In this document: piece after piece, positions 11,833 to 17,288 of the stretch
Layout of the letters: the number at the start of each line of letters is the position of its first letter
Position numbering within the stretch: position 1 is the first letter of the stretch
Assembly: GCA_003136355.1 (NCBI GenBank)
Contig: PLED01000109.1
Span: forward strand, 6,808 to 42,961
Direction: 5' to 3'
Length of the DNA stretch: 36,154 nucleotides
From: Vulcanimicrobiota bacterium
GTDB taxonomy: Bacteria > Vulcanimicrobiota > Vulcanimicrobiia > Vulcanimicrobiales > Vulcanimicrobiaceae
Notes under the pieces: generated by a model
Database searches by the model: none
What the model was told of the DNA's origin: nothing
Seen by the model: the letters and a program-made list of their open reading frames with translations, nothing else
Position numbers and translations under genes: made by a program

Positions 11833-12978
11833 TTATGGGACCTCGGCCTCCATCTCTTCGGGCTCTTCGGCCGGCTTAAAGCGTGCCTGCGCGACCAACG
11901 TCGGCACGATTGCCGTCAATATAACGACGGTAACCAGAGCCGTATATTGCGCCTGATTGATGTAGTGGTGCGTTAGTCCGTACAAACTCGAGATCGTCCC
12001 AAACGTCAGGCCGGTCGCCATCAGTAGCGTCAGGTAGGCTGCGTTGTCCCGCGAGAATCGAAAGCCGTATCGCGCAATCGGCAGCACGGCGACGATTTTC
12101 GCGATGATTTTTAGGAAAAAGAGAATCACGATCAGCCACGCGCTCCCCGCGGCGGCTGAAAATGATATATACGTTCCGGCTTTGATGAAATAGAAGGGAG
12201 CCAGCAGTGTCATCGTCATGGTTTGCAGCCGGCGCTTGATATCGGGATAGGTGAACATGAAACCGGCGCACGCTATGCCGAGGAAATACGCCGGCAGAAC
12301 GCCTTCGCTCTTCGCGTACGTCGCCAGCGCCGCCAAAACGAAGATGACGGCGAAGAGTATCCGCAAGCCCGGTTCGCTGACGTAGCGGCGAGTGCGTTCC
12401 ACGACGGCGGGAAGTAATTTTGGCATGACGATCATGCCGCCGACAATGCCCGCGATCAACAGCGCTAACCAGAGATTATAGTTTGCAAAGAGCAGCCCGA
12501 GCGCGGCGACCGTGCCTAAGTCGGTAAAAAAGCATGCGGCCAAAATGAGCTGCCCGAACTCGCGCCCCGCAAGCCCCGACTCCACCATGACCGCGTAGAC
12601 GACCGCGACCGACGTCGTCGACATCGCAAGGCCGGCGATCTTGGCCGCCGGAAGAGACCAATGCGCGACGAAGAGCGCATAGCCCATCGCGGCCAGAAAT
12701 GGCGCCAGAAAAGATGCCGCACCGAGCACCGTCGATGGAACGAGCTGTTTGCGCAGTACGACCGGATCGATCTCCGCGCCGGCCAGAAACGTAAGCAAGA
12801 TGCTGCCGAAACCGGCGACAAAATCGATCCAGCCGTTGGTGTGCAGCATGATGAAATTGCCGGCGAGCATGCCGATGATGATCTCCGCCAGCGCTGCCGG
12901 CATCTTTACGCGGATCGCGATGAAAGCGCTCAAAGCCGCAAGCGACATCCAGATCGCCGCGACCAACCACATGTTCAT
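11833..12978 (-). CDS. Cation/proton antiporter, CPA2 (Kef/NapA-like) family
   Basis: The product has 381 residues, with 11-13 hydrophobic segments throughout and no C-terminal RCK/TrkA domain. Family features are LAEIIIGMLAGN in the first inverted repeat, FGSILLTFLAGAEIDP, the unwound-helix stretch STTSVAVVYAVMVE, and FFTDLGTVAALGLLF. In that last one, the ion-binding Asp is preceded by Thr rather than by Asp (electrogenic CPA2) or Asn (CPA1). It should exchange Na+ or K+ (or Li+) for protons across the inner membrane; which ion cannot be decided here. The start ATG 12978-12976 is preceded by GGGAG at the right distance. That site is embedded in a structured leader (12979-13084), so ligand-controlled translation is likely. 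The C-terminus is short and acidic (PAEEPEEMEAEVP). Confidence 0.88.
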   Translation of the reverse strand: MNMWLVAAIWMSLAALSAFIAIRVKMPAALAEIIIGMLAGNFIMLHTNGWIDFVAGFGSILLTFLAGAEIDPVVLRKQLVPSTVLGAASFLAPFLAAMGYALFVAHWSLPAAKIAGLAMSTTSVAVVYAVMVESGLAGREFGQLILAACFFTDLGTVAALGLLFANYNLWLALLIAGIVGGMIVMPKLLPAVVERTRRYVSEPGLRILFAVIFVLAALATYAKSEGVLPAYFLGIACAGFMFTYPDIKRRLQTMTMTLLAPFYFIKAGTYISFSAAAGSAWLIVILFFLKIIAKIVAVLPIARYGFRFSRDNAAYLTLLMATGLTFGTISSLYGLTHHYINQAQYTALVTVVILTAIVPTLVAQARFKPAEEPEEMEAEVP

Positions 12979-13084
12979 GAAAAACTCCCGTCATAGCGTT
13001 TGTGCAGACAGGAGCCATCAGCCGTTACCGGCGGTTAGCGGGAAGCTCCATTCCCTTCGAAGGCGGCGTTTTCGAGTTCGGAGT
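12979..13084 (-). ncRNA. Riboswitch-like leader of the antiporter gene (nhaA-I / Li+ riboswitch-like candidate)
   Basis: On the minus strand, GGAGCU (13049-13044) pairs with GGCUCC (13016-13011). This closes an aptamer-like element that contains GCUAACCGCC and GGUAACGGCUGAUG. The downstream segment CUCCUGUC (13014-13007) can instead pair over 8 base pairs with GACGGGAG (12992-12985), which holds the Shine-Dalgarno sequence GGGAG. The two pairings share 13011-13014 and exclude each other, the layout of a translational riboswitch. Location directly before a cation/proton antiporter, and the GGUAACGGCUGAUGGCUCC core as I remember that class, suggest the lithium-sensing nhaA-I motif. The structure is read directly from sequence; the class assignment is from memory and needs a covariance-model search. 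Confidence 0.6.
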
Positions 13085-15538
13085 TTAGTCCGTGCGTAGG
13101 AGCGCGAAGCACTCGGCGTGCGTTGTGGTCGGAACCCCGCAGAGCCTCCGGTACGGACCCGGATGGTAGTTCAGGCTGTTGTACGGGGCAGGAATGGTCT
13201 CACTTTCCGGACGGGCGAACGCGCCGGTGGCGCCATTCGGCGTGCCGAGCCCGGTCGGCCCGTCGTAGCCTACACCGGCCGTGCAGTAGTATGACGGACT
13301 GGTGCTACAAGGTCCATTTGTACCTGAAGTGACGTCGTACAGCGAGAGTGTGCGCGAGTACGGAAACGATCCGTAAACCACGGTCGCGCCGTTTCCGGCG
13401 ATGGCATAGACTGATGCGATAACCGGAGCGGATTCGCTCGTGCCGCCTACTCGTCCCCATCCGGGTGACTGGTACGTGTCGTACGTCCAGACTGCCGTGT
13501 TGGGATCGGCGTTGGCCGAAACGTCGGCCGTCATGCGCATCGCGCAGCCGGTATCCGTTTGCCAAACCGGCTTTGTGATGAACAAGCTGCAGCCGCTGCC
13601 TGTTCCGGAGCTCGCACCGCTGCTGCCCCATGCGGTTTCGGACCACCCCCGACCGCCTGCCGAGGCAACGAGAGCCGTACCGCCCACCGCCGTTACGAAG
13701 GCCGAGGAGGCCGGATAGCTCACGCCGGCCGCAAAAGCGTTGTCGCCGGTACTTGCCGTGATGGGTACTCCGGGATGATTGAAGTTGACCTCAAAGCTGA
13801 GTATCCCAGCTCCTTCGGTCCCGCCCCAGCTGTTGCTGACCTCGGTTGCGCCCAGGACCACCGCCTCGTTTTCGGCTGCGAACAAGCTGTTGAACGAATT
13901 ACTGGTCCCTTCGACAAGCAGAATTTTGCAGTTCGGGCAGATCGCAGAGACCATGTCGACATCCAATGAGATTTCGCCGGCCCAGCCTGCGTCGGGAATC
14001 GGATAATTCGTTGAGCCGTCTTGCGCGCGTTTCTTGAAACAGCCGTTCGCCGAGGTGCACGCCGGCAGGCCGAACGCGGCGCGATACACCGCTAGATCGC
14101 TCTCGGCCGTAGGATCATCATATGCATCGACGATCGCTACTGTTTGCGTTCCGCCGCCCGATGCCGAACTTGAGGCTAAGTTATATGCCGACTGCAAGTC
14201 GCACGGATAATAGCCCGCCCGCGAGACGCCTGGGGTCGGGATCGGGCACGGACCCGTTACCAGGAATGATCCAAGGATGACGCCGTTGACGAGGGCCCTG
14301 AAGCGCGTCCCGGTAAACGCTGTGCCGCCGTTGTACGTCATGGTAACCGGAGTGCTCGACGATGAAACCGAGGTGACGCTAAGCCCGGTGCTTCCCGTCT
14401 GATCGAGGGTTGTGAAAGTGATCGGGCTCGCGTAGGTTCCGGTAATCGTTTTGCCGTTGACGTCTTTTTCGACGATCGTCAACGGGACGGATTTCGGTGT
14501 CCCGAGTGTTACCGGCGTGAACGGCGATCCGGACGAGTCGGTAATGATGATGTTCGCGACGGGACCGAACGCGGGCAGCGGGGCCGAATAGATCGCGCCC
14601 GACGAGCTGGTCAAATACAGACTCGATCCTGCGGAGATACTCAGTAAGCCCGCGCCGTTTTGCGCGGTAAATCCCGGAGTGTTGAGATCGAAATAATAGA
14701 CTTGGTTGCCGCTCGGCGCGACGGGATAACCCAGCACGAAGAAGCCGCCGTTCGTCGTCGGCGTAATGGCCGAAGCCGCGCCCGGAACTTGGGAGAAGGT
14801 CAGATTCGCATTCTCATACCAAATCGAGCCCGAAGAACTTAGGATGTAGAGTCCGCCGGCGTTTATCGCGCCGGTCATGCCGGCTCCCGCCGGGAAGTTG
14901 TTGGTGTCCCAGTTCGCGGCGAGCACGACGCCCGAACCGTTGAGCTGCGTCCATCCGGCGCCTGCTGAGTAGTGCCAAATTGCGCGGTCGGGGCCGGAGC
15001 CGCCGTTTGACAGCACGTAAATTCCATTGGTTGAATCGGCGGTAATGCTGTTGGTGGCGCCGCCGCCGGGCGACGTCCACGTTCCGCTGACGTAATGCCA
15101 GATGCCGCCGCCCGAATTAATTGCCCACAATGAACCATCGGCTGCAACCGAGAGGCGCGATGCAAGTCCCGAGATATTCGTCCAAACACCTGAAGCATAA
15201 TGCCAGATGTACTTATCCGCGCTGCTGCTGGGCTGATCTGAGAGCACCCACAGCGTTCCGTCCGGACTGGCTGCAACGGCGCTAGCGGTGCCGGGCACCT
15301 GCGTCCAGCTCAGCGGCGGTTGAGCGATGTCGGAGTGGGGCGCAGTCGTCATCGCGCTCGCGGGAAGAATCTCGGTCTTCGCCATCGGCGCGGCCGGAAT
15401 GGTTCCGGGCGAGACCGATTGTGGCGTAACCGGCGGCGTCACGCCGCCGCCTGGAAGAAGCCCCGAGCTGCCGCCGCCATGAGAACACCCGGCGGCGAGG
15501 ACGGCAAAAAGAACGCTGATAATAATCGGCTTGCGCAT
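13085..15538 (-). CDS. S53 (sedolisin) family peptidase lipoprotein with N-terminal propeller-like repeats
   Basis: The product has 817 residues from ATG 15538-15536. Residues 1-18 are a lipoprotein signal (MRKPIIISVLFAVLAAGC, lipobox LAAGC, Cys18), so the protein should be anchored in the envelope. A Gly/Pro linker is followed by several repeats of the type DGTLWVLSD...IWHYASGVW, resembling tectonin/propeller blades, to about residue 300. Next comes an Ig-like domain with short Ser/Thr-rich strands (about 320-430). The S53 catalytic domain follows, with catalytic Glu522 and Asp526 (GEISLDVD), oxyanion Asp599 (STGDNAF) and nucleophile Ser701 (GGTSESAP). All sedolisin catalytic residues are present. 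The usual activation prodomain of S53 proteins is not visible; propeller and Ig-like regions take its place. Its likely role is acid-active proteolysis outside the inner membrane. A structured leader precedes it. Confidence 0.88.
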   Translation of the reverse strand: MRKPIIISVLFAVLAAGCSHGGGSSGLLPGGGVTPPVTPQSVSPGTIPAAPMAKTEILPASAMTTAPHSDIAQPPLSWTQVPGTASAVAASPDGTLWVLSDQPSSSADKYIWHYASGVWTNISGLASRLSVAADGSLWAINSGGGIWHYVSGTWTSPGGGATNSITADSTNGIYVLSNGGSGPDRAIWHYSAGAGWTQLNGSGVVLAANWDTNNFPAGAGMTGAINAGGLYILSSSGSIWYENANLTFSQVPGAASAITPTTNGGFFVLGYPVAPSGNQVYYFDLNTPGFTAQNGAGLLSISAGSSLYLTSSSGAIYSAPLPAFGPVANIIITDSSGSPFTPVTLGTPKSVPLTIVEKDVNGKTITGTYASPITFTTLDQTGSTGLSVTSVSSSSTPVTMTYNGGTAFTGTRFRALVNGVILGSFLVTGPCPIPTPGVSRAGYYPCDLQSAYNLASSSASGGGTQTVAIVDAYDDPTAESDLAVYRAAFGLPACTSANGCFKKRAQDGSTNYPIPDAGWAGEISLDVDMVSAICPNCKILLVEGTSNSFNSLFAAENEAVVLGATEVSNSWGGTEGAGILSFEVNFNHPGVPITASTGDNAFAAGVSYPASSAFVTAVGGTALVASAGGRGWSETAWGSSGASSGTGSGCSLFITKPVWQTDTGCAMRMTADVSANADPNTAVWTYDTYQSPGWGRVGGTSESAPVIASVYAIAGNGATVVYGSFPYSRTLSLYDVTSGTNGPCSTSPSYYCTAGVGYDGPTGLGTPNGATGAFARPESETIPAPYNSLNYHPGPYRRLCGVPTTTHAECFALLRTD

Positions 15539-15600
15539 CAGACGCGATTCCCTTCCTCCGGTAGGGCAACCCCCTTCCGTGGCTCCGGAAACGTTAGGAT
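15539..15600 (-). promoter_or_regulatory. Structured 5' leader of the S53 peptidase gene, unidentified
   Basis: In the minus-strand RNA, UCCGG (15589-15585) pairs with CCGGA (15561-15557). Inside it AGGG (15575-15572) pairs with CCCU (15566-15563) around a GGUUG loop. The closing strand CCGGAGG merges into the purine-rich Shine-Dalgarno region (GGAGGAAGGGA) before ATG 15538, so the fold could mask or expose it. GCCACGG and GGGUUGCC recall the 3' half of the GEMM-I c-di-GMP riboswitch, but the conserved 5' half is absent. Confidence 0.35.
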
Positions 15601-15617
15601 ATGCATAAGAATTGGGC

Positions 15618-17288
15618 CTAAGCAGGCGGCAAACGCTCGCGAGCAAGCATTTCCCGGTAGATTTCCTCGACCCGGGCGATGGTATCGATTTCACGGGGCG
15701 GCTTGTCGTCGCGCAGCCGGACGATGCGCGGAAAGCGCAGCGCGAAGCCGCTTTCGTGTAGACCGCTTGGTTGGATAATGTCAAAGGCGACCTCGAGCAC
15801 GACCTCCGGCTCGACCGCGATGGCGTGCCCGCGCTTTCCCCGCTGGTGCGCCAGGAACCACGGCGTGAGCTCGGCGATCTCCGCATCGGTTAAGCCCGAA
15901 TACGCCTTGCCGATCGTTTGCAGCTCGCCGCTGTTTCCGCGCACCGCGAACGTGTAGTCGGAAAGCACTTTAGCGCGCTTCCCATGTCCCCACTCGACCG
16001 CGACGACCACAACGTCGAGCGTGGAGAGCTCGCGCTTGAGTTTGAGCCACCATTTGCCGCGGCGCCCCGGATGATACGGTGAGTCGCTGCGCTTGAGCAT
16101 GATGCCTTCATGTCCGCGCTCGCGCGCCGCTTCGAACAGCTCGTGCAATTCTTCGGGTGCGGGCGTTTCGGAAAGGGGCGTGAACGGAGCGATTTCCAAA
16201 TGCCCACGTGAAGCAACTGTTTCGGCCAAGCGCGCCCGCCGCGAAACCAACGGCTCGTCGATCAAGAAATCGTCACCCGATGCGAGCATGTCGAAGACGA
16301 AGTAGCTGACAGGCACTTCCTTTAGAAGCTCGGGCTCGACGGTTTTTCGCTGCAGCCGCGCTTGCAAGTAGCGAAACGGCAGCACGTTCTCGCCTCGCGT
16401 GGCGACGAGCTCGCCGTCGAGCATGAAATTGCCGGGAATGGCTTCGAGCGCGGCGGCGACCTCGGGATACGATTGTGTGACGTCGTTCAACGTGCGCGAG
16501 AAGAGTTTTACGCTCTCGCCGGTTTTGTGCGCCTGTGCGCGAATGCCGTCGAATTTTTCTTCGGCCAGCCACGTGCCCGTGCGCAGATCTTTGTACTTGG
16601 AACCGTAGAGTATTGGAGTCGCCAGCATGAAGCCGATTGGCGAACCGTAGGTCACGCGCAGATCGCCGAGCTTTCCGTCGCGCGCCGCGGTCGCAACGGC
16701 GCCGATATCACCCGCCGCCATGACCGCGCGCCGGACGTCGCGCGCGTCGCACTCGAAAGCGGCGGCAACCGCGTCGGCGACGAGTCCTTCACGCAGGCCG
16801 ATGCGAAGATCGCCGGTCATAATCTTGATCACGTACGTGGCTTCGGTTGCGTCGGTGCACGCGCGCAGAATGCGCTCGCACAGCGCTTCACGTTTTTTTC
16901 CGGCGGCTTTGCCGCGCGTGTTTGCGATCTCTTCGAAGAGCGCATAGAGCGAAGCCGGCGTCAGCGTCTCGGAGAAAAGCGCGAGGTCCAACGCGGGCCG
17001 GACGAACGGTCCGAGCGCCGCGCCGAGATCCCCGTGTTCGCGGTAATTCGCGCCGAGCTCGGTTTCCTTAAAGCCCCACGCGTTTCGCGAGGCCGCTACG
17101 ACGGTGCGCCGGCCGATGCCCAGACTGCGGTTGTCGCGCGCGGCGAAGGGGTTGCCGGTGAAGAAGCGTGCCGCCGCGCTCAGATTGGGGTCATCGAGCG
17201 AGCGAAAGTACTCCGCGAGCAGCGCGATCTTTTCGAGCTTGCCGGCGCGCGCCGCAATCGCCGCGCAGGTTCCTCCGAAGCGGAGCAT
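15618..17288 (-). CDS. ATP-dependent DNA ligase
   Basis: The product has 556 residues, starting ATG 17288-17286. It has an N-terminal DNA-binding domain (about 1-210) with the conserved YVIKIMTGDLRIGLREG segment. The adenylation domain carries the nucleophile Lys245 in motif I (AEEKFDGIRAQ), FMLDGEL, motif III YFVFDML and motif IV EGIMLKR, and motif V with KWWLKLK. The C-terminal OB-fold ends with the RFPRIVRLRDDKPPREIDT segment seen in archaeal/bacterial ATP-ligases of this length. It seals nicks using ATP and is additional to the NAD-dependent LigA expected elsewhere. The MBL-fold exonuclease gene ends 3 bases upstream of its start. These two are the known pair of the ligase-associated exonuclease/helicase/phosphoesterase repair cluster. 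Confidence 0.93.
   Translation of the reverse strand: MLRFGGTCAAIAARAGKLEKIALLAEYFRSLDDPNLSAAARFFTGNPFAARDNRSLGIGRRTVVAASRNAWGFKETELGANYREHGDLGAALGPFVRPALDLALFSETLTPASLYALFEEIANTRGKAAGKKREALCERILRACTDATEATYVIKIMTGDLRIGLREGLVADAVAAAFECDARDVRRAVMAAGDIGAVATAARDGKLGDLRVTYGSPIGFMLATPILYGSKYKDLRTGTWLAEEKFDGIRAQAHKTGESVKLFSRTLNDVTQSYPEVAAALEAIPGNFMLDGELVATRGENVLPFRYLQARLQRKTVEPELLKEVPVSYFVFDMLASGDDFLIDEPLVSRRARLAETVASRGHLEIAPFTPLSETPAPEELHELFEAARERGHEGIMLKRSDSPYHPGRRGKWWLKLKRELSTLDVVVVAVEWGHGKRAKVLSDYTFAVRGNSGELQTIGKAYSGLTDAEIAELTPWFLAHQRGKRGHAIAVEPEVVLEVAFDIIQPSGLHESGFALRFPRIVRLRDDKPPREIDTIARVEEIYREMLARERLPPA

Follow-up and report, generated by a model that had tools for sequence, protein, structure and literature searches.

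A fluoride riboswitch precedes a CPA2-type antiporter gene

The window analysed here, the whole 36,154-nt stretch of DNA, carries on its minus strand a gene for a CPA2-type cation/proton antiporter of 381 aa (11833..12978), which PF00999, profile and motif comparison place in a fluoride-linked subfamily. A leader of about 100 nt separates its ATG (12978) from the stop codon (13085) of the upstream gene. The upstream gene (13085-15886, minus strand) is a 933-aa frame whose true start is probably internal; Tectonin is its sole domain match, and the C-terminal part of its product shows motifs that recall subtilase/sedolisin proteases, by eye only.

Comparison of the whole window with all Rfam families revealed a single match above cut-off, to the fluoride riboswitch (crcB motif, RF01734), at 13064-13002 on the minus strand (cmscan, 52.4 bits; gathering score 34). 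The match covers the full model (1-64 of 64; E 6.8e-12 over the whole window) and ends in the 5' leader, 23 nt ahead of the CPA2 start codon, a transporter-gene position that is itself shared with known members of the class. All structural elements of RF01734 are present. Helix P1 is formed by GGGA (13052..13055) and UCCC (13040..13043), and the second hairpin by GCCG-GUAA-CGGC (13021..13032), which follows the Rfam structure line, as P1 does, and also appears in the minimum free energy (MFE) fold. A loop-tail pseudoknot pairs GGAGC (13045..13049) with GCUCC (13011..13015). The conserved core, AACCGCC / GGCUGAUG, agrees with the fluoride consensus at each position. We consider the assignment to the fluoride class very secure at the level of sequence; the leader RNA adds a member to an established class, and the class of gene that it precedes is likewise a known target.

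The stems and letters that the initial annotation had placed on the minus strand were all borne out by a sequence check, as was its description of a riboswitch ahead of a CPA2-type antiporter gene, now backed by the RF01734 match and the PF00999 protein. What it had called the aptamer stem, GGAGCU/GGCUCC (13049-13044 with 13016-13011), does exist, but is the pseudoknot of the aptamer, joining the P1 loop to the 3' tail. The hairpin GGGAA/UUCCC (13055-13051 with 13044-13040), read there as a third, alternative state, turned out to be P1 of the same aptamer, formed together with the pseudoknot.

The aptamer shares a strand with a Shine-Dalgarno-masking stem

On the minus strand, CUCCUGUC (13007..13014) forms the anti-Shine-Dalgarno arm of the expression platform. 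It pairs over 8 bp with GACGGGAG (12985..12992), the Shine-Dalgarno (SD) region of the antiporter gene, which lies 6 nt ahead of the ATG. As had been claimed, the 3' strand of the pseudoknot also belongs to the masking stem, as the start of its anti-SD arm, and ligand binding should therefore turn translation on. When the leader RNA was folded alone, the masking stem was the predicted ground state (MFE; pair probabilities 0.89-1.0) and the SD was nearly all paired in this unliganded fold. Blocking the pseudoknot strands in a crude secondary-structure model left the SD still 0.71-0.86 paired; the model backs the direction of SD opening and not its size, and how far the site opens is uncertain. 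Taken as a whole, the 121-nt leader has a fold energy that does not stand out (z -1.33).

Comparison of orthologous leaders was more informative on the two stems. On a composite alignment of fixed-length blocks, covering 25 distinct ortholog sequences, P1 and the pseudoknot were paired in 100% of cells; 34 cells were doubly changed, compared with 11 after shuffling. All four P1 pairs change on both sides among the orthologs, and a C-G/U-A double change in the pseudoknot (13 UA, 12 CG) leaves every cell paired. The masking stem occurred in 26 of 28 leaders with 6-12 pairs, and its 3' arm ends 2-8 nt ahead of the start codon in most of them; leaders L061 and L062 have the riboswitch with poor masking. 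With the invariant CUCC/GGAG core set aside, pairs formed in 105 of 125 cells, compared with 80 in shuffles, and none of 5000 shuffles reached 105. On the composite alignment, 90.7% of masking-stem cells were paired against 79.6% when shuffled; each 3' arm was chosen for its pairing among a few GGAG candidates, a slight bias in favour of the stem. The stem contained 21 doubly changed cells, against 7.4 in shuffles and far above all slid controls, although the leaders are related and the independent events are fewer than the cell counts.

Both stems thus covary in homologous leaders, the check that the initial annotation had proposed. Because P1/pseudoknot and masking stem are both conserved and covarying, both mutually exclusive structures look to be under selection. 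The idea that aptamer formation frees the ribosome site gains support from the shared 3' strand and from the recurrence of the masking stem, and a translational ON switch is well supported by this comparison of leaders. We infer ligand binding and the direction of switching as follows. Without fluoride, CUCCUGUC would pair with GACGGGAG and hide the Shine-Dalgarno site. Binding of F- and Mg2+ would stabilize the GGAGC/GCUCC pseudoknot, which would keep its 3' strand from the masking stem and let ribosomes load, and the transporter made would then help the cell survive fluoride.

The antiporter belongs to a CPA2 subfamily with a changed ion site

The antiporter matched PF00999 (1.2e-36, 126.8 bits against a cut-off of 26.2) as its sole Pfam match; the same scan placed it in neither PF02537 (Fluc/CrcB) nor PF00654 (CLC). 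TIGR00932 (CPA2) matched at 4.8e-26 and 91.9 bits, under its curated cut-off of 238.3. Searching the PDB with the single protein (phmmer) gave no match, and a profile was needed to reach the nearest solved structures, NapA (PDB 4bwz, 5bz3; 1.9e-17) and KefC (8bxg; 2.2e-10). An AlphaFold model from five sequences had a pLDDT of 37.

Like NapA and KefC, the protein is by profile a member of the CPA2 family. In the alignment with NapA, Asp153 falls on the second Asp of the ion-site pair and Lys294 on the TM10 Lys, whereas the first Asp of that pair is Thr152 here and Asn in some relatives. The subfamily also differs from both proteins in an extra invariant Lys290, STTS ahead of VVY, and TGLTFG (322-327 here), and at 381 aa there is no room for the C-terminal domain of KefC. 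Electrogenic clades are marked by Asp at the first position together with Lys in TM10, and some CHX and Kef types have Asn or Gln at the first position (PMC6181914). The protein therefore departs from the electrogenic (NapA/NhaA type) pattern at CPA-motif position 6, which is Thr152 and not Asp, and agrees with it at position 8, Lys294. STTS, (T/N)D, Lys290, Lys294 and TGLTFG were near-invariant in 33 family members, and four distant CPA2 proteins had most of them missing. One ortholog behind a fluoride riboswitch (L049, genome G112) carries Gly at position 153, where Asp is otherwise near-invariant; CrcB is also present in its genome.

The CPA2 gene follows a fluoride riboswitch in several phyla

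We found the fluoride riboswitch in 74 of 149 Eremiobacterota genomes. Among the 147 searched for proteins, CrcB was present in 73, CLC in 53 and the CPA2 subfamily in 34. Of these 34 genomes, 32 have a fluoride riboswitch ahead of the CPA2 gene. In 30 of them a distance of 22-177 nt separates the end of the riboswitch from the CPA2 match downstream; in G034 the riboswitch heads a crcB-CPA2 operon, in G012 it precedes a fragmentary CPA2 copy, and the orthologs of G119 and G106 have no riboswitch ahead of the CPA2 gene. Computation thus establishes the linkage to this gene across genomes, alongside the identity and geometry of the aptamer and the covariation of both alternative stems. Short CPA2-like fragments, decayed or rearranged in appearance, were also seen (G037:C66:25343-25686, G053:C177:3393-3461 and G051:C1:311595-311720).

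Outside the phylum, a fluoride riboswitch stands ahead of relatives (43-50% identity) in Rubrobacter, Rhizobium, Caulobacter, Enterobacter and Klebsiella, and most of these have a universal stress protein gene next. This order, antiporter gene then universal stress protein gene, was seen on Rubrobacter, Caulobacter and enterobacterial plasmids (L105, L107, L108, L109), with a MutS-like gene following in the enterobacterial cases. No fluoride riboswitch was seen with a Methylocystis relative (42%) or with a Lactococcus relative (23%) that adjoins Trk genes, and the phage records searched contained no relative.

In some Eremiobacterota genomes the number of fluoride riboswitches reaches about seven, most of them clustered within 10-25 kb and some in back-to-back pairs. 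Such fluoride islands were noted at L085 (G108:C5:364001-384000), L086-L087 (G033), L088-L089 (G118), L090 (G077), L091-L092 (G099) and L094 (G106), and Rfam confirmed the riboswitches at six loci. Genes downstream encode MutS domain V proteins, complex-I/hydrogenase-like subunits, DUF190, dynamin-like GTPases, NUDIX and metallophosphoesterase proteins, as well as CrcB and an enolase-like protein, the last two by eye. When the motif was first described, the genes named with it already included those for K+ and Cl- transport, mutS and formate hydrogen lyase (PMC2864571).

Weighing alternative explanations

Taken as a whole, we are highly confident in a fluoride riboswitch that would turn on translation of a CPA2-type antiporter. 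The initial annotation had instead placed the leader in or near nhaA-I and suggested an Infernal scan against nhaA-I and nhaA-II. Li+ riboswitches of these classes are indeed ion-sensing RNAs known ahead of cation transporter genes (PMC9646797), and the target here is a member of a cation/proton antiporter family. The scan left RF01734 as the one match above cut-off: neither nhaA model matched at E<=10 in 12940-13120, where a permissive search added to RF01734 only two unrelated sRNA matches far below cut-off, and the core fits the fluoride consensus by position. The lithium reading is wrong on this account, the leader differing from both nhaA classes in model match and in ligand class; we rejected an nhaA-I/II identity on the evidence of the sequence and structure models, and even kinship with these RNAs is extremely improbable. 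It is also quite unlikely, if less so, that the fluoride riboswitch works through transcription termination or Rho and not through SD masking. Many fluoride riboswitches use terminators (PMC2864571), among them the best-studied ones, whereas the expression platform here is an SD-masking hairpin; this is no essential departure from the class, and some fluoride riboswitches are treated as translational (PMC13273304). In this leader, the SD itself forms the downstream arm, the U stretch after that arm is short and the start codon comes immediately next, although Rho may still play some part. No terminator-like site was found in 12900-13250, and neither promoters nor terminators turned up in simple scans.

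What the protein transports is likewise a matter of inference. As a member of the fluoride regulon, the antiporter probably keeps pH or cations in balance when the cell is under fluoride stress; its default role would be to correct the cytoplasmic acidification and cation imbalance caused by HF entry. It is unlikely that it instead exports fluoride itself, as a third class in addition to Fluc/CrcB and CLC-F, although several observations point that way. The source genome (96.6% complete) has a single fluoride riboswitch, the one at the CPA2 gene, and neither CrcB nor CLC was detected in it. Both were undetected in 21 of 34 CPA2 genomes, and in 16 of the 24 that are at least 90% complete, the source genome included. 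The association of CPA2 with known exporters was negative (either exporter, p 0.001; CLC alone, p 9e-5), although these p values are overstated, as the genomes are related and relatedness was uncorrected. The ion-site motif is altered, the first Asp of DD being replaced by T/N and Lys290 being an extra invariant residue. A precedent exists in the CLC-F proteins, variants within a chloride family that are selective for fluoride (PMC7266159). Against fluoride export, eleven genomes have CPA2 together with CrcB, some adjacent or in one operon, and lack of a known exporter is common in this phylum, with 33 of 147 genomes having none of CrcB, CLC and CPA2. Moreover, to our knowledge, the CPA proteins characterized to date all move cations. 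It is doubtful that this subfamily of CPA2 fold, with its altered ion site, is an unrecognized exporter class that pumps F- (or exchanges HF/F- for H+ or a cation) and replaces Fluc/CLC-F in many Eremiobacterota, with relatives on enterobacterial plasmids. Because of the 33 genomes without all three and the 11 that also have CrcB, we treat replacement of the known exporters by CPA2 as purely hypothetical. With homeostasis as the preferred reading, the transporter may still carry the main share of fluoride resistance in genomes without CrcB or CLC.

An antiporter in the fluoride regulon

Na+/H+ antiporters are the second commonest class linked to fluoride riboswitches, after fluoride exporters, and their place in the fluoride regulon has been explained by pH homeostasis (PMC11139923). 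This general statement was the only one on a fluoride role that we found for CPA2 proteins in the literature. As far as the antiporters of Baker 2012 can be judged from their citation in PMC11139923, they share with the present gene the regulatory RNA and the broad transporter superfamily; here, by comparison, the CPA2 gene is the sole riboswitch gene of a genome in which CrcB and CLC were not found. In the literature searched we found no description of the subfamily signature or of such sole-target status, which is not in itself proof of novelty.

Correcting the call from lithium to fluoride leaves a well-supported translational fluoride riboswitch from a largely uncultured phylum. Its less ordinary part is the target gene, a CPA2 subfamily that stands behind fluoride riboswitches in Eremiobacterota and several other phyla. 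The result bears on the question of what job antiporters do in the fluoride regulon, and genomes with the antiporter as sole riboswitch target and no known exporter found are suited to asking whether these proteins move F- or protons and cations.
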